A program made the translations under genes and the position numbers. A model generated the notes under the pieces. It saw only the letters and a program-made list of their open reading frames with translations. It had not been told where the DNA came from and did not search any database. From contig LFKV01000035.1 in assembly GCA_001189345.1 (NCBI GenBank), positions 1-64,000 of the forward strand: DNA of 64,000 nt, written 5' to 3'. Below, one piece after another: positions 44,445 through 47,324 of this stretch. Each line of letters opens with the position of its first letter. Positions within the stretch are counted from its first letter, which is position 1. Source of the stretch: Candidatus Paraburkholderia kirkii (lineage in GTDB: Bacteria; Pseudomonadota; Gammaproteobacteria; Burkholderiales; Burkholderiaceae).

Positions 44445-45518
44445 TCAATTGCCGCCGCCGCGTACCACTCGCCGCTGCCTGACCGCTTCCGCGAGCCCTT
44501 CCAGCACCTTCACGCTCTCGTCCCAGCCGATGCAAGCATCGGTAATGCTTTGCCCGTAGGTGAGCTCGCATCCTTCCTTCAGATCCTGCCGTCCGGCGAC
44601 GAGATGCGATTCCACCATCACGCCGACGATGCGCTCATCGCCGGAAGCGAGCTGGCGTCCGATGTCCTCGCAAACCGGAATCTGGTTCTCGTGCTTCTTC
44701 GAGCTGTTCGCATGGCTCGCATCGATCATCAGGCGCGCAGCCAGACCCGCCTTGCCGATATCGCTGCACGCGGCATTGACACTGTCCGCATCGTAATTGG
44801 GGGTCTTCCCGCCGCGCAGGATGATGTGGCAATCCTCATTGGCTGCGGTGGAAACGATCGCCGAATGCCCGCCCTTCGTCACCGAGAGGAAATGGTGCGG
44901 CTGCGAGGCCGCCTTGATGGCGTCGACGGCGATCTTCACGTTGCCGTCGGTGCCGTTCTTGAATCCGACGGGACAGGACAATCCGGAAGCCAGTTCGCGA
45001 TGAACCTGCGATTCCGTGGTCCGCGCCCCGATCGCGCCCCAGGAAATGAGGTCGGCGATGTATTGCGGGCTGATCATGTCGAGGTATTCGGTACCCGCAG
45101 GCAACCCGAGCTCATTGATATGCATGAGCAGCTTCCGCGCGGTCCGCAACCCGTCGTTGATCTTGAAGCTGTTGTCCATGTACGGATCGTTGATGAGCCC
45201 CTTCCAGCCGACCGTGGTGCGCGGCTTCTCGAAGTACACCCGCATCACGATCTCCAGTTCCCCCGCGAACCGCTTGCGCTGCTCGATCAGCCGTCCCGCA
45301 TACTCGATCGCTGCCTTCGGATCATGAATCGAGCAGGGCCCGATGATGACGATCAATCGGTCGTCCATTCCATGGAGAATGCGATGCATCGACTGCCGCG
45401 CATTGAAGATGAGCTTCGAGACCGGCTCGGCGCAGGGAAACTCGCGGATCAGATGCGCGGGCGGGGTCAGCTCTTTCAATTCACGGATACGTACGTCATC
45501 GGTATTGTGCGAGGGCAT
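44445..45518 (-). CDS. aroG: 3-deoxy-7-phosphoheptulonate synthase (DAHP synthase), class I
   Basis: The first step of the shikimate pathway, joining phosphoenolpyruvate and erythrose 4-phosphate. The intact 357-residue protein has LIVIIGPCSIHDPKAAIEYA, VMRVYFEKPRTTVGWKGLIN, WGAIGARTTESQVHRELASG and the metal and substrate region RLMIDASHANSSKKHENQIP, ending RQRRVVRGGGN. It matches the AroF/G/H type. An attenuator with an aromatic leader peptide lies directly upstream (45564-45690), so transcription is probably controlled by Phe, Tyr and Trp tRNA charging. Confidence 0.95.
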   Translation of the reverse strand: MPSHNTDDVRIRELKELTPPAHLIREFPCAEPVSKLIFNARQSMHRILHGMDDRLIVIIGPCSIHDPKAAIEYAGRLIEQRKRFAGELEIVMRVYFEKPRTTVGWKGLINDPYMDNSFKINDGLRTARKLLMHINELGLPAGTEYLDMISPQYIADLISWGAIGARTTESQVHRELASGLSCPVGFKNGTDGNVKIAVDAIKAASQPHHFLSVTKGGHSAIVSTAANEDCHIILRGGKTPNYDADSVNAACSDIGKAGLAARLMIDASHANSSKKHENQIPVCEDIGRQLASGDERIVGVMVESHLVAGRQDLKEGCELTYGQSITDACIGWDESVKVLEGLAEAVRQRRVVRGGGN

Positions 45519-45563: not shown

Positions 45564-45591
45564 GAAAAAAACCACCAGACTCGCTGGCGGT
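45564..45591 (-). terminator. Attenuator terminator ahead of aroG
   Basis: On the minus strand ACCGCCAG, loop CGAGT, CTGGTGGT (one G-U pair) is followed by seven T residues, ending about 47 bases before the aroG start. The 5' arm CCGCCAGCG (45582-45590) is exactly complementary to CGCTGGCGG inside the leader coding region (45639-45647), giving an alternative antiterminator pairing. Confidence 0.8.
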
Positions 45592-45624
45592 TTTTCGGGA
45601 ATTTCGGTTTGCTCGACCTACGAC

Positions 45625-45690
45625 TCACCCCTCTCGATCCGCCAGCGGCTTGAGATGCCAAAAGAAATAAAAATAAAACTTGGCGGACAT
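45625..45690 (-). CDS. aroG leader peptide with aromatic control codons
   Basis: A 21-codon reading frame, MSAKFYFYFFWHLKPLADRE plus Gly, then TGA. Seven consecutive codons are Phe, Tyr, Phe, Tyr, Phe, Phe, Trp, a strikingly non-random run for a GC-rich genome. It starts about 32 bases after the predicted transcription start and ends about 35 bases before the terminator stem. The codons after the aromatic run (CCG CTG GCG GAT) supply the antiterminator arm. A ribosome stalled on the aromatic codons would leave that arm free to pair with the terminator 5' arm, allowing aroG transcription. No strong Shine-Dalgarno sequence is visible. Confidence 0.8.
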   Translation of the reverse strand: MSAKFYFYFFWHLKPLADREG

Positions 45691-45728
45691 GAGAAATCGA
45701 ACGGAGATCGAAAAAAGTCGTGACTGCT

Positions 45729-45758
45729 TTTATAACCGCAAACATGCGGCGCTGACAA
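45729..45758 (-). promoter_or_regulatory. Sigma-70 promoter for the aroG leader
   Basis: TTGTCA (-35, 45753-45758) and TATAAA (-10, 45729-45734) on the minus strand with an 18-base spacer. It is placed about 40 bases before the leader peptide start. Confidence 0.7.
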
Positions 45759-45857
45759 GCCTGTAGCACCGAAAACGCGGACAATCCGCATCGCGGCGGG
45801 CAAGCGCGCAGGATTTGCGCTCAGCCGATGCGGATTTCCCGCACGATCGTCGAGAGA

Positions 45858-47324
45858 TCAAACCATCCCGCCGACCGTCATCCTTTCGATGCGCAGCGTC
45901 GGCTGCCCGACGCCGACCGGTACGCTCTGGCCTTCCTTGCCGCACACGCCGACGCCGCTGTCCAGCGACATGTCGTTGCCGATCATCGTCACGTACTTGA
46001 GCGATTCGGGCCCGCTGCCGATCAGCGTCGCGCCCTTCACCGGATACGTGATCCTGCCGTTCTCGATCATGTACGCCTCGGACGCCGAGAAGACGAACTT
46101 GCCGTTGGTGATGTCGACCTGACCGCCGCCGAAGTTCACCGCATAGAGGCCGTTCTTCACCGACGCGACAATTTCCTGCGGGTCCTTGTCGCCGTTGAGC
46201 ATGTAGGTGTTGGTCATGCGCGGCATCGGCAGCGCGGCGTACGATTCGCGGCGCGCGTTGCCCGTCACCGGCATTTTCATCAGGCACGCGTTGAGCGAAT
46301 CCTGGATGTAGCCCTTGAGGATGCCGTCCTCGATCAGCGTCGTGCACTGCGTCGGGTTGCCTTCGTCGTCGATGTTGAGCGAGCCGCGACGATTTGGCAG
46401 CGTGCCGTCGTCGACCACGGTGACGCCCTTCGCCGCCACCTGCTCGCCGATGCGCCCCGCGAACGCCGACGATCTCTTGCGGTTGAAATCGCCCTCGAGC
46501 CCGTGTCCGACCGCCTCGTGCAGCAGCACGCCCGGCCAGCCCGGCCCGAGCACGACGGTCATGGCGCCTGCCGGCGCCGGGCGCGCTTCGAGGTTCACGA
46601 GCGCCGCGTGCACGGCATCGTCGGCGTACTTGCTTAGCACCGCGTCGGTGAAATCGCCGTAGTCGAAGCGTCCGCCTCCGCCGCCCGTGCCGATCTCGCG
46701 GCGGCCGCTCTGCTCGGCGATCACCGTCACCGACACGCGCACCAGCGGGCGCACGTCGGCGGCGAGCGCGCCGTCGCTGCGCGCGACGAGCACGACGTCG
46801 TATTCGCCGGCCAGGCCCGCCATCACCTGCGTGATGCGCGGATCCTTGCTGCGCGCCATCTGCTCGACGCGCTCGAGCAGCTTCACCTTCGCGTTCGCAT
46901 CGAGCGAATGCAGCGGATCGACGGGCAGATACAGATCGCGGCCCGACACGCCCGTCAGCGTGCTGGCCGGCTTGATCCTGTGCGTGTCGCCGCCCGCCTT
47001 GGCGATCGCGCGCGTCGCGATCGCGGCCTGACGGATGGATTCGGGCGACAAGTCATCCGAATAGGCGAACGCGGTGCGCTCGCCGGACACGGCGCGCACG
47101 CCCACGCCCTGATCGATGCTGAAGCTGCCCGATTTGACGATGCCTTCCTCGAGGCTCCACGCCTCGCTGCGCTTGGACTGGAAGTACAGGTCCGCGTAAT
47201 CGACGCGATGTTCGAAGATGTCCGCGAGCGTGCGGGTGATCAGCTCTTCGTCGAGGCCGTACGGCGTGAGCAGGACTTCCTTCGCCGTGACCAGGTTGCG
47301 AATGCAGGGTTCGATGATGTTCAT
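45858..47324 (-). CDS. tldD: Metalloprotease TldD
   Basis: An intact 488-residue zinc metalloprotease subunit that, with TldE/PmbA, degrades unfolded small peptides. The zinc site is [20 protein letters not shown]. Flanking family blocks are [60 protein letters not shown] and the C-terminal [20 protein letters not shown]. The N-terminal start region fits the usual length. It is co-directional with the amidase gene upstream and aroG downstream but is separated from aroG by its own promoter and attenuator. Confidence 0.95.

Follow-up and report, generated by a model that had tools for sequence, protein, structure and literature searches.

A probable ribosome-mediated attenuator with an aromatic leader peptide upstream of aroG in Candidatus Paraburkholderia kirkii and its relatives

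Does the short region upstream of aroG in Candidatus Paraburkholderia kirkii hold a transcription attenuator that reads the supply of aromatic amino acids? The window, a 64,000-nucleotide stretch of contig LFKV01000035.1, carries on its minus strand a DAHP synthase gene whose product scores 601 bits against NF006723 AroG (cut-off 568) and also matches TIGR00034 and PF00793. The region in question lies between a PmbA/TldD-family gene (45858–47324) and this aroG (45518–44445). A preliminary description of the DNA had read there a promoter, a 21-codon leader with the aromatic run FYFYFFW, an antiterminator arm, its complement, seven U residues and then aroG, and all of these parts are present in the sequence, exact to the base:

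45729–45758, minus strand: promoter TTGTCA-N18-TATAAA, predicted sigma-70, read from the sequence
45758–45753, minus strand: -35 element TTGTCA, separated by an 18-nt spacer from the -10 element TATAAA at 45734–45729
45691–45728, minus strand: the 38 nt from the -10 element to the leader start, with no Shine-Dalgarno-like motif
45625–45690, minus strand: leader peptide ORF MSAKFYFYFFWHLKPLADREG, 21 codons and TGA, from the sequence
45658–45678, minus strand: control codons F Y F Y F F W, leader codons 5–11, from the sequence
45639–45647, minus strand: segment 2, the antiterminator 5′ arm CGCTGGCGG, within leader codons 15–18, from the sequence and pairing tests
45630–45656, minus strand: possible 1:2 hairpin enclosing segment 2 (TCTC...CCG...CGG...GAGA), without support as a functional element
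45582–45590, minus strand: segment 3 CCGCCAGCG, common to antiterminator and terminator, from the sequence
45565–45594, minus strand: intrinsic terminator (3:4), AAAACCGCCAG, loop CGAGT, CTGGTGGTTTT, seven U, from folding, alignment and sequence
44445–45518, minus strand: aroG, type I DAHP synthase, the presumed regulated gene (NF006723 AroG, TIGR00034, PF00793)

Segment 2 is an exact complement of segment 3 at nine of nine positions, and segment 3 forms the 5′ half of the terminator together with the start of its loop. The leader ORF ends 30 nt ahead of the terminator, with the hairpin at 45594–45568 and seven T at 45571–45565 on the minus strand. We are highly confident that the element is a ribosome-mediated transcription attenuator of aroG; it is real and conserved, and probably functional as an aromatic attenuator. 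A simple-rule promoter scan of the window flagged no promoter at the leader site and a simple-rule terminator scan missed the leader terminator, the single terminator found being located just past aroG; the promoter and terminator calls therefore rest on reading and conservation. The leader peptide has no match among NCBIfam or Pfam families. Elsewhere in the intergenic region, an inverted repeat seen by eye past the stop of the PmbA/TldD-family gene (AATCCGCATCG...CGATGCGGATT, 45783–45836, minus strand) is possibly a terminator or processing site of that gene.

The run of aromatic codons had been judged unlikely to arise by chance, and the genome bears this out. A pattern of six Phe/Tyr codons (TWY × 6) has six matches in the whole 3.9-Mb genome, of which five overlap in one TTC microsatellite and the sixth is the leader; read backwards as a control, the pattern has 10 matches. 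Six such codons occur in one other place only, a microsatellite, and the run is not a product of chance. When 50 other aroG-like upstream regions were shuffled once each, the best aromatic count per eight residues never exceeded four, compared to seven aromatics in a row in the window leader. Searched at E up to 1, the window's genome gives a single match to a covariance model made from relatives.

Among 150 Burkholderiaceae genomes surveyed, that of the window included, AroG was found in 142, and upstream DNA was examined for 70 aroG copies (68 main copies, window included, and two paralogous copies). An aromatic leader followed by a terminator precedes 61 of the 68 main copies, the window's among them. 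The leader is absent at six main copies (L059, L060, L061, L064, L069 and L070) and broken at one, from a 1.2-Mb genome (L036). Forty-seven of these were placed in one alignment and 36 in another. The FYFYFF core is retained in 42 of the 61, with codons varying between TTT and TTC and between TAT and TAC. Relative to the window, the seven control codons show 83 synonymous, 36 aromatic-to-aromatic and 25 other changes (57 of 61 leaders, four out-of-register leaders dropped), such that 119 of 144 changes are synonymous or exchange one aromatic residue for another. The ORF rich in aromatic amino acids is kept while the rest of the leader region is not. TCTC...GAGA is nearly invariant in Burkholderiaceae leaders. 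An alignment of relatives was the test that the preliminary description had proposed, and the result is largely in its favour: leader frame, aromatic codons and alternative stems are kept in Burkholderiaceae and beyond, and the attenuator interpretation made there is supported.

A fixed-gap DNA pattern of the core, scanned over the GTDB 220 species genomes, matched at least 120 stretches. Among the 80 matches listed, 64 are Burkholderiaceae or Burkholderiales records, including Burkholderia, Paraburkholderia, Caballeronia, Cupriavidus, Ralstonia, Pandoraea, Trinickia, Mycetohabitans, Pararobbsia and MAGs. In 62 of these 64 listed records aroG lies within 2.5 kb downstream, the other two loci ending too early (L281 and L289); the leader of one listed record (L275) falls off the locus and the frame is shifted in two (L243 and L257). 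The remaining 16 of the 80 matches listed are from unrelated bacteria, have neither aromatic leader nor aroG, and were left out of the counts. In Candidatus Burkholderia humilis (L243, 7500–7720), Caballeronia megalochromosomata (L257) and L036, the leader frame is broken or shifted while terminator and aroG remain, which, judged from the sequences, looks like decay of regulation.

Both paralogous aroG copies examined in Burkholderiaceae are without a leader, and in each of seven genomes (L071, L072 and L224–L228) no aromatic leader precedes the second or paralogous DAHP synthase gene. Because the paralogous genes are without it, the DAHP synthase isozymes are probably under different regulation.

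Outside the family, a covariance model built on the leader region alone (R1) was run on 399 genomes of the order Burkholderiales and matched 101 of them at E up to 0.01 (107 matches). Ninety of these matches were examined (seven in the window's family, 83 outside), and of the 83, 76 are leaders upstream of aroG (23 of 23 in a first batch, 53 of 60 in a second), distributed over 13 other families. Seven of the 60 second-batch matches (L150, L154, L156, L157, L159, L161 and L162) are plain terminators with no aromatic leader and were dropped; none has aroG except L161, whose DAHP synthase-like gene is on the other strand. The out-of-family peptides vary widely (e.g., MHRPVAPFFFFWYPTPTAAGRG, MKFTHFFFFFYFSYSKPQAVGRR and MQARTSFYFYFWFSSPAEER) and retain clustered aromatics followed by a GGCGG-like core. 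Of the 137 leaders, 136 have at least five aromatics among the 12 codons preceding segment 2; the 137 include weak members (the aromatic ORF of L097 stops short of segment 2, and the starts of L115 and L125 are uncertain).

Across 274 genomes of the class, two of nine new matches are real (L163 and L165), both in one other family. The other seven (L166–L172) have neither aromatic leader nor aroG and were dropped. Other classes of the phylum have the leader in L191, L192 and L198 and in four more genomes of the same two families (L353–L356), and a phylum-wide search found it at four of 20 aroG upstream regions (L179, L191, L192 and L198). Many aroG genes are without the leader. AroG was present in 25 of 40 order genomes missed by the model, and among the 30 of their 32 AroG matches that were examined a leader was found at one locus only (L209). 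On a midpoint-rooted tree of partial AroG with 134 leaves, leader state changes 14 times compared to at least 26 in 200 label shuffles, a count that is slightly too high, as two leaves (L354 and L356) were scored as lacking the leader by threshold despite five aromatics in eight residues.

The pairing of the RNA was evaluated by folding, within the family alignment and across families. The terminator alone has a folding energy of -14.9 kcal/mol (z = -4.5 relative to dinucleotide shuffles), and the stretch from segment 2 to segment 3 has z = -2.5 in the window; the whole leader-to-terminator RNA of the window folds no better than shuffles (z = -0.7). Covariation in both hairpins, which the preliminary description had named as support, was found for the terminator, with changes on both sides at three pairs of the 47-row family alignment, but within Burkholderiaceae the antiterminator arm varies too little for much of it to be seen. 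There, the 2:3 stem has both-side changes at two pairs, as do 200 of 500 shuffles, and its covariation score was reached by shuffles in 114 of 500 cases; 89% of 2:3 cells are paired compared to 87.1% in shuffles, with none of 500 shuffles reaching 89%.

Cross-family duplexes were compared for 86 sequences (76 outside the family and 10 of the 61 inside it). In 57 of 86, the 2:3 arms of one and the same sequence pair more strongly than the mean of their cross-family pairings (p = 4e-5), related sequences in the set not being independent. The segment 2 arm was originally chosen by energy, with a single candidate in 118 of 137 leaders; using the first or last candidate arm irrespective of energy gives 57 or 51 of 86 (p = 6e-5 and 6e-4). 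By family, within-sequence pairing exceeds cross-family pairing in 10 of 14 (sign test, p = 0.18) and is weaker in f8, f20, f23 and f43. For 3:4 the result is 82 of 86 (p = 1e-14), a test that is partly circular, pairing itself having served to locate these arms. Exact complementarity shows the antiterminator, and covariation gives it moderate support.

The attenuator had also been called complete, a word that calls for reserve over the low variation of the antiterminator arm within the family and over a 1:2 protector hairpin. This hairpin was suggested by TCTC...GAGA and its pairs are mostly kept in the 47-row family alignment; it is unsupported by cross-family duplexes, which show no gain (47 of 86, p = 0.37), by covariation or by local folding. 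In the window it has no stability above shuffles (z = +1.3), and the local mean z lies under -1 for seven of the 14 families, of which two have one sequence, and is +0.25 for the window's family.

From the sequence we infer promoter use, leader translation, ribosome stalling and a response to amino acids, as follows. RNA polymerase would start about 30 nt ahead of the leader ORF, and a ribosome would translate the leader behind it. With charged tRNA-Phe, tRNA-Tyr or tRNA-Trp in short supply, the ribosome would stall at codons 5–11; with the last control codon in its A site it would end just before segment 2, leaving 2:3 to pair, so that no terminator forms and aroG is transcribed. With all three charged tRNAs plentiful, the ribosome would reach the stop codon and cover segment 2, 3:4 would form, and transcription would end at the U run.

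To compare the geometry of the leaders with this scheme, the ribosome was assumed to cover 18 nt upstream and 12 nt downstream of the first base in its A-site codon. Of the -20.9 kcal/mol of 2:3 in the window, -20.5 kcal/mol then stays available with the ribosome at the Trp codon and only -1.7 kcal/mol with it at the stop. The last aromatic codon and the first G of the GGCGG-like core are 14 nt apart in 64 of 137 leaders, 17 nt in 27 and 11 nt in 16. At least half of the 2:3 energy is left with a ribosome at the last aromatic codon in 114 of 137 leaders and at least half is removed with a ribosome at the stop in 85, both conditions holding in 81. In the window's family the mean share of the energy that survives is 82% for a ribosome at the last aromatic codon and 34% for one at the stop, compared to 60% and 59% outside it; direct masking at the stop for this reason explains the family well and part of the other leaders poorly. 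Placed four codons ahead of the stop, the ribosome would take away half or more of the 2:3 energy in 135 of 137 leaders, which makes masking in transit possible.

A TTGYCR...TATAAR promoter is located upstream of 40 of the 61 Burkholderiaceae leaders, with the -10 element ending 34–42 nt before the start in 31 of the 40, and for the window it places the predicted transcription start near 45722. A Shine-Dalgarno-like motif accompanies one of 61 Burkholderiaceae leaders and seven of 76 others, compared to all 38 aroG starts tested. The mean anti-Shine-Dalgarno energy is -1.0 kcal/mol at leaders and -7.0 kcal/mol at those 38 starts. The missing motif counts against translation of the leader, for which the mostly synonymous or aromatic-to-aromatic changes in the control codons speak. 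Outside the family, a TAnnnT hexamer ends 5–10 nt before the start in 46 of 76 leaders (shuffled mean, 5.7; maximum, 12) and an extended TGnTAnnnT in 30 of 76, compared to a TAnnnT in three of 61 inside Burkholderiaceae (shuffled mean, 6.0); some leaders begin with GTG or TTG and starts were picked by aromatic content, which may bias these -10 distances. Extended -10-like elements (e.g., TGTGCTACATT) end 6–8 nt before the leader ATG in L120, L148 and L080. Because the -10-like hexamers end 5–10 nt before the start, leaderless transcripts are predicted for many leaders outside Burkholderiaceae. The window leader is not predicted to be leaderless, its -10 element ending 38 nt before the ATG.

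Which amino acids would be sensed is less uniform than the anatomy. The preliminary description had proposed that all three products of the pathway could be read, and Phe, Tyr and Trp codons are all present in the window leader, but Trp is not universal: Phe occurs in 137 of 137 leaders, Tyr in 128 and Trp in 88, with all three in 85. It is plausible that the window sensor responds to a shortage of any of the three, relatives with no leader Trp should, from their codons, respond to Phe and Tyr only, and sensing of all three is not general across leaders. The attenuator responding to Phe and Tyr only, with the window's Trp codon tolerated and no part of the sensor, is a serious alternative, if on balance not a probable one. 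The lower count for Trp, and its replacement by Gly, Ala or Ser in eight of the 42 leaders with the FYFYFF core, are in keeping with a tolerated codon. Against this, Trp is present in all 19 leaders examined of families f23 and f49 (and in none of five from another family), and in the window it is the last control codon, where a ribosome of the assumed footprint leaves segment 2 free. A broader reading may be put forward tentatively and with some doubt: that an old and widespread family of leaders senses pooled aromatics at the entry to the shikimate pathway, that lineages re-tune it for Phe, Tyr and Trp by codon swaps, and that in many lineages the sensor peptide comes from a leaderless transcript, on which the first ribosome would load as soon as the RNA emerges and would mask the antiterminator arm directly with no need of a protector hairpin.

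Three further explanations concern whether the element regulates aroG by attenuation at all. That the leader yields a trans-acting small RNA or peptide, with termination not mainly serving aroG control, is unlikely. Termination would release an RNA of some 160 nt, and in Sinorhizobium meliloti both the attenuator RNA rnTrpL and its leader peptide peTrpL have described roles in trans (PMC7298713); yet the peptide here differs widely across families, with mainly its aromatic content kept, and the element lies directly upstream of aroG in the loci kept after checking. It is more unlikely still that an ancestral switch persists as a relic, no longer regulating in this organism with its single type I DAHP synthase. 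Among the sampled genomes of its genus the window's is the smallest, and it has one AroG match compared to two in all 14 sampled congeners (its second PF00793 match is a KDO-8-phosphate synthase), and leaders are broken in two relatives with small or symbiotic genomes (L036 and L243), but in the window itself leader, arms, terminator and promoter are unbroken. A metabolite-binding riboswitch or T-box in place of a ribosome-sensed leader would also fit a terminator and competing stem ahead of a biosynthetic gene, but is highly improbable given that no Rfam gathering-score match was found in the window or in 20 relatives and that it is the ORF of the pathway's own amino acids, not the remaining leader, that is conserved. 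In Rfam 15 (4227 families) the window has zero gathering-score matches, with two weak, unrelated hits at the site when E values up to 10 are admitted, and the 20 relatives have three weak unrelated matches below gathering.

The ribosome-mediated attenuator thus preferred was compared with known systems. A literature search, with subscription papers outside its coverage, found no aroG attenuator described for Betaproteobacteria, and priority is not claimed; the element could be among those listed by Vitreschak et al. 2004 or by Merino and Yanofsky 2005. Enteric pheL and trpL (Rfam Phe_leader and Trp_leader) each respond to a single amino acid and act on terminal branches. They share with the element a leader ORF carrying regulatory codons in runs, the terminator, the competing antiterminator and a target in aromatic synthesis, whereas the element precedes the common first enzyme, has mixed Phe, Tyr and often Trp codons, and is without a recognisable Shine-Dalgarno motif, a supported protector hairpin or an Rfam gathering match. 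The ilvGMEDA and thr leaders are likewise under multivalent control, exerted by more than one end product of a branched pathway, but in another pathway and with other amino acids.

Within the accessible text of PMC2965389, PMC5343134, PMC1173090, PMC4176332 and PMC5688073, no Betaproteobacteria aroG attenuator is described. PMC1173090 lists predicted attenuators associated with tyrA, and PMC5688073 reports 82 short 5′UTR transcripts in B. cenocepacia. The closest proposal by target is uORFC-13-1, an attenuator with an uORF and terminator proposed upstream of the DAHP synthase gene aroF in Acholeplasma (PMC8632094, where an older attenuation hypothesis for E. coli aroF is also cited). It differs in being reported from Acholeplasma and environmental sequences only and in being described with an RBS and at least one Phe codon, a comparison made by description only. 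In S. meliloti trpL the transcript opens directly with the leader ORF, a state also predicted for many non-Burkholderiaceae leaders, but this is a trp leader before trpE(G) and its 5′ end is stated in PMC7298713, while the leaderless state here is predicted from -10 positions only and not for the window. What looks new in the element is a leader ORF that is mostly without a Shine-Dalgarno motif and that, outside Burkholderiaceae, would often be leaderless.

The element would be a new entry for RNA-family and small-protein annotation and is relevant to aromatic production in Cupriavidus and Paraburkholderia. The leaders form a natural series of sensors differing in Phe, Tyr and Trp content, in which it could be tested how control codons and spacing set specificity, and, if the leaderless prediction is true, they would offer a bench system for transcription-translation coupling on leaderless RNA. 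For the bacteria themselves, the attenuator would explain RNA-level control of the first committed aromatic step in many Burkholderiaceae and several related families.
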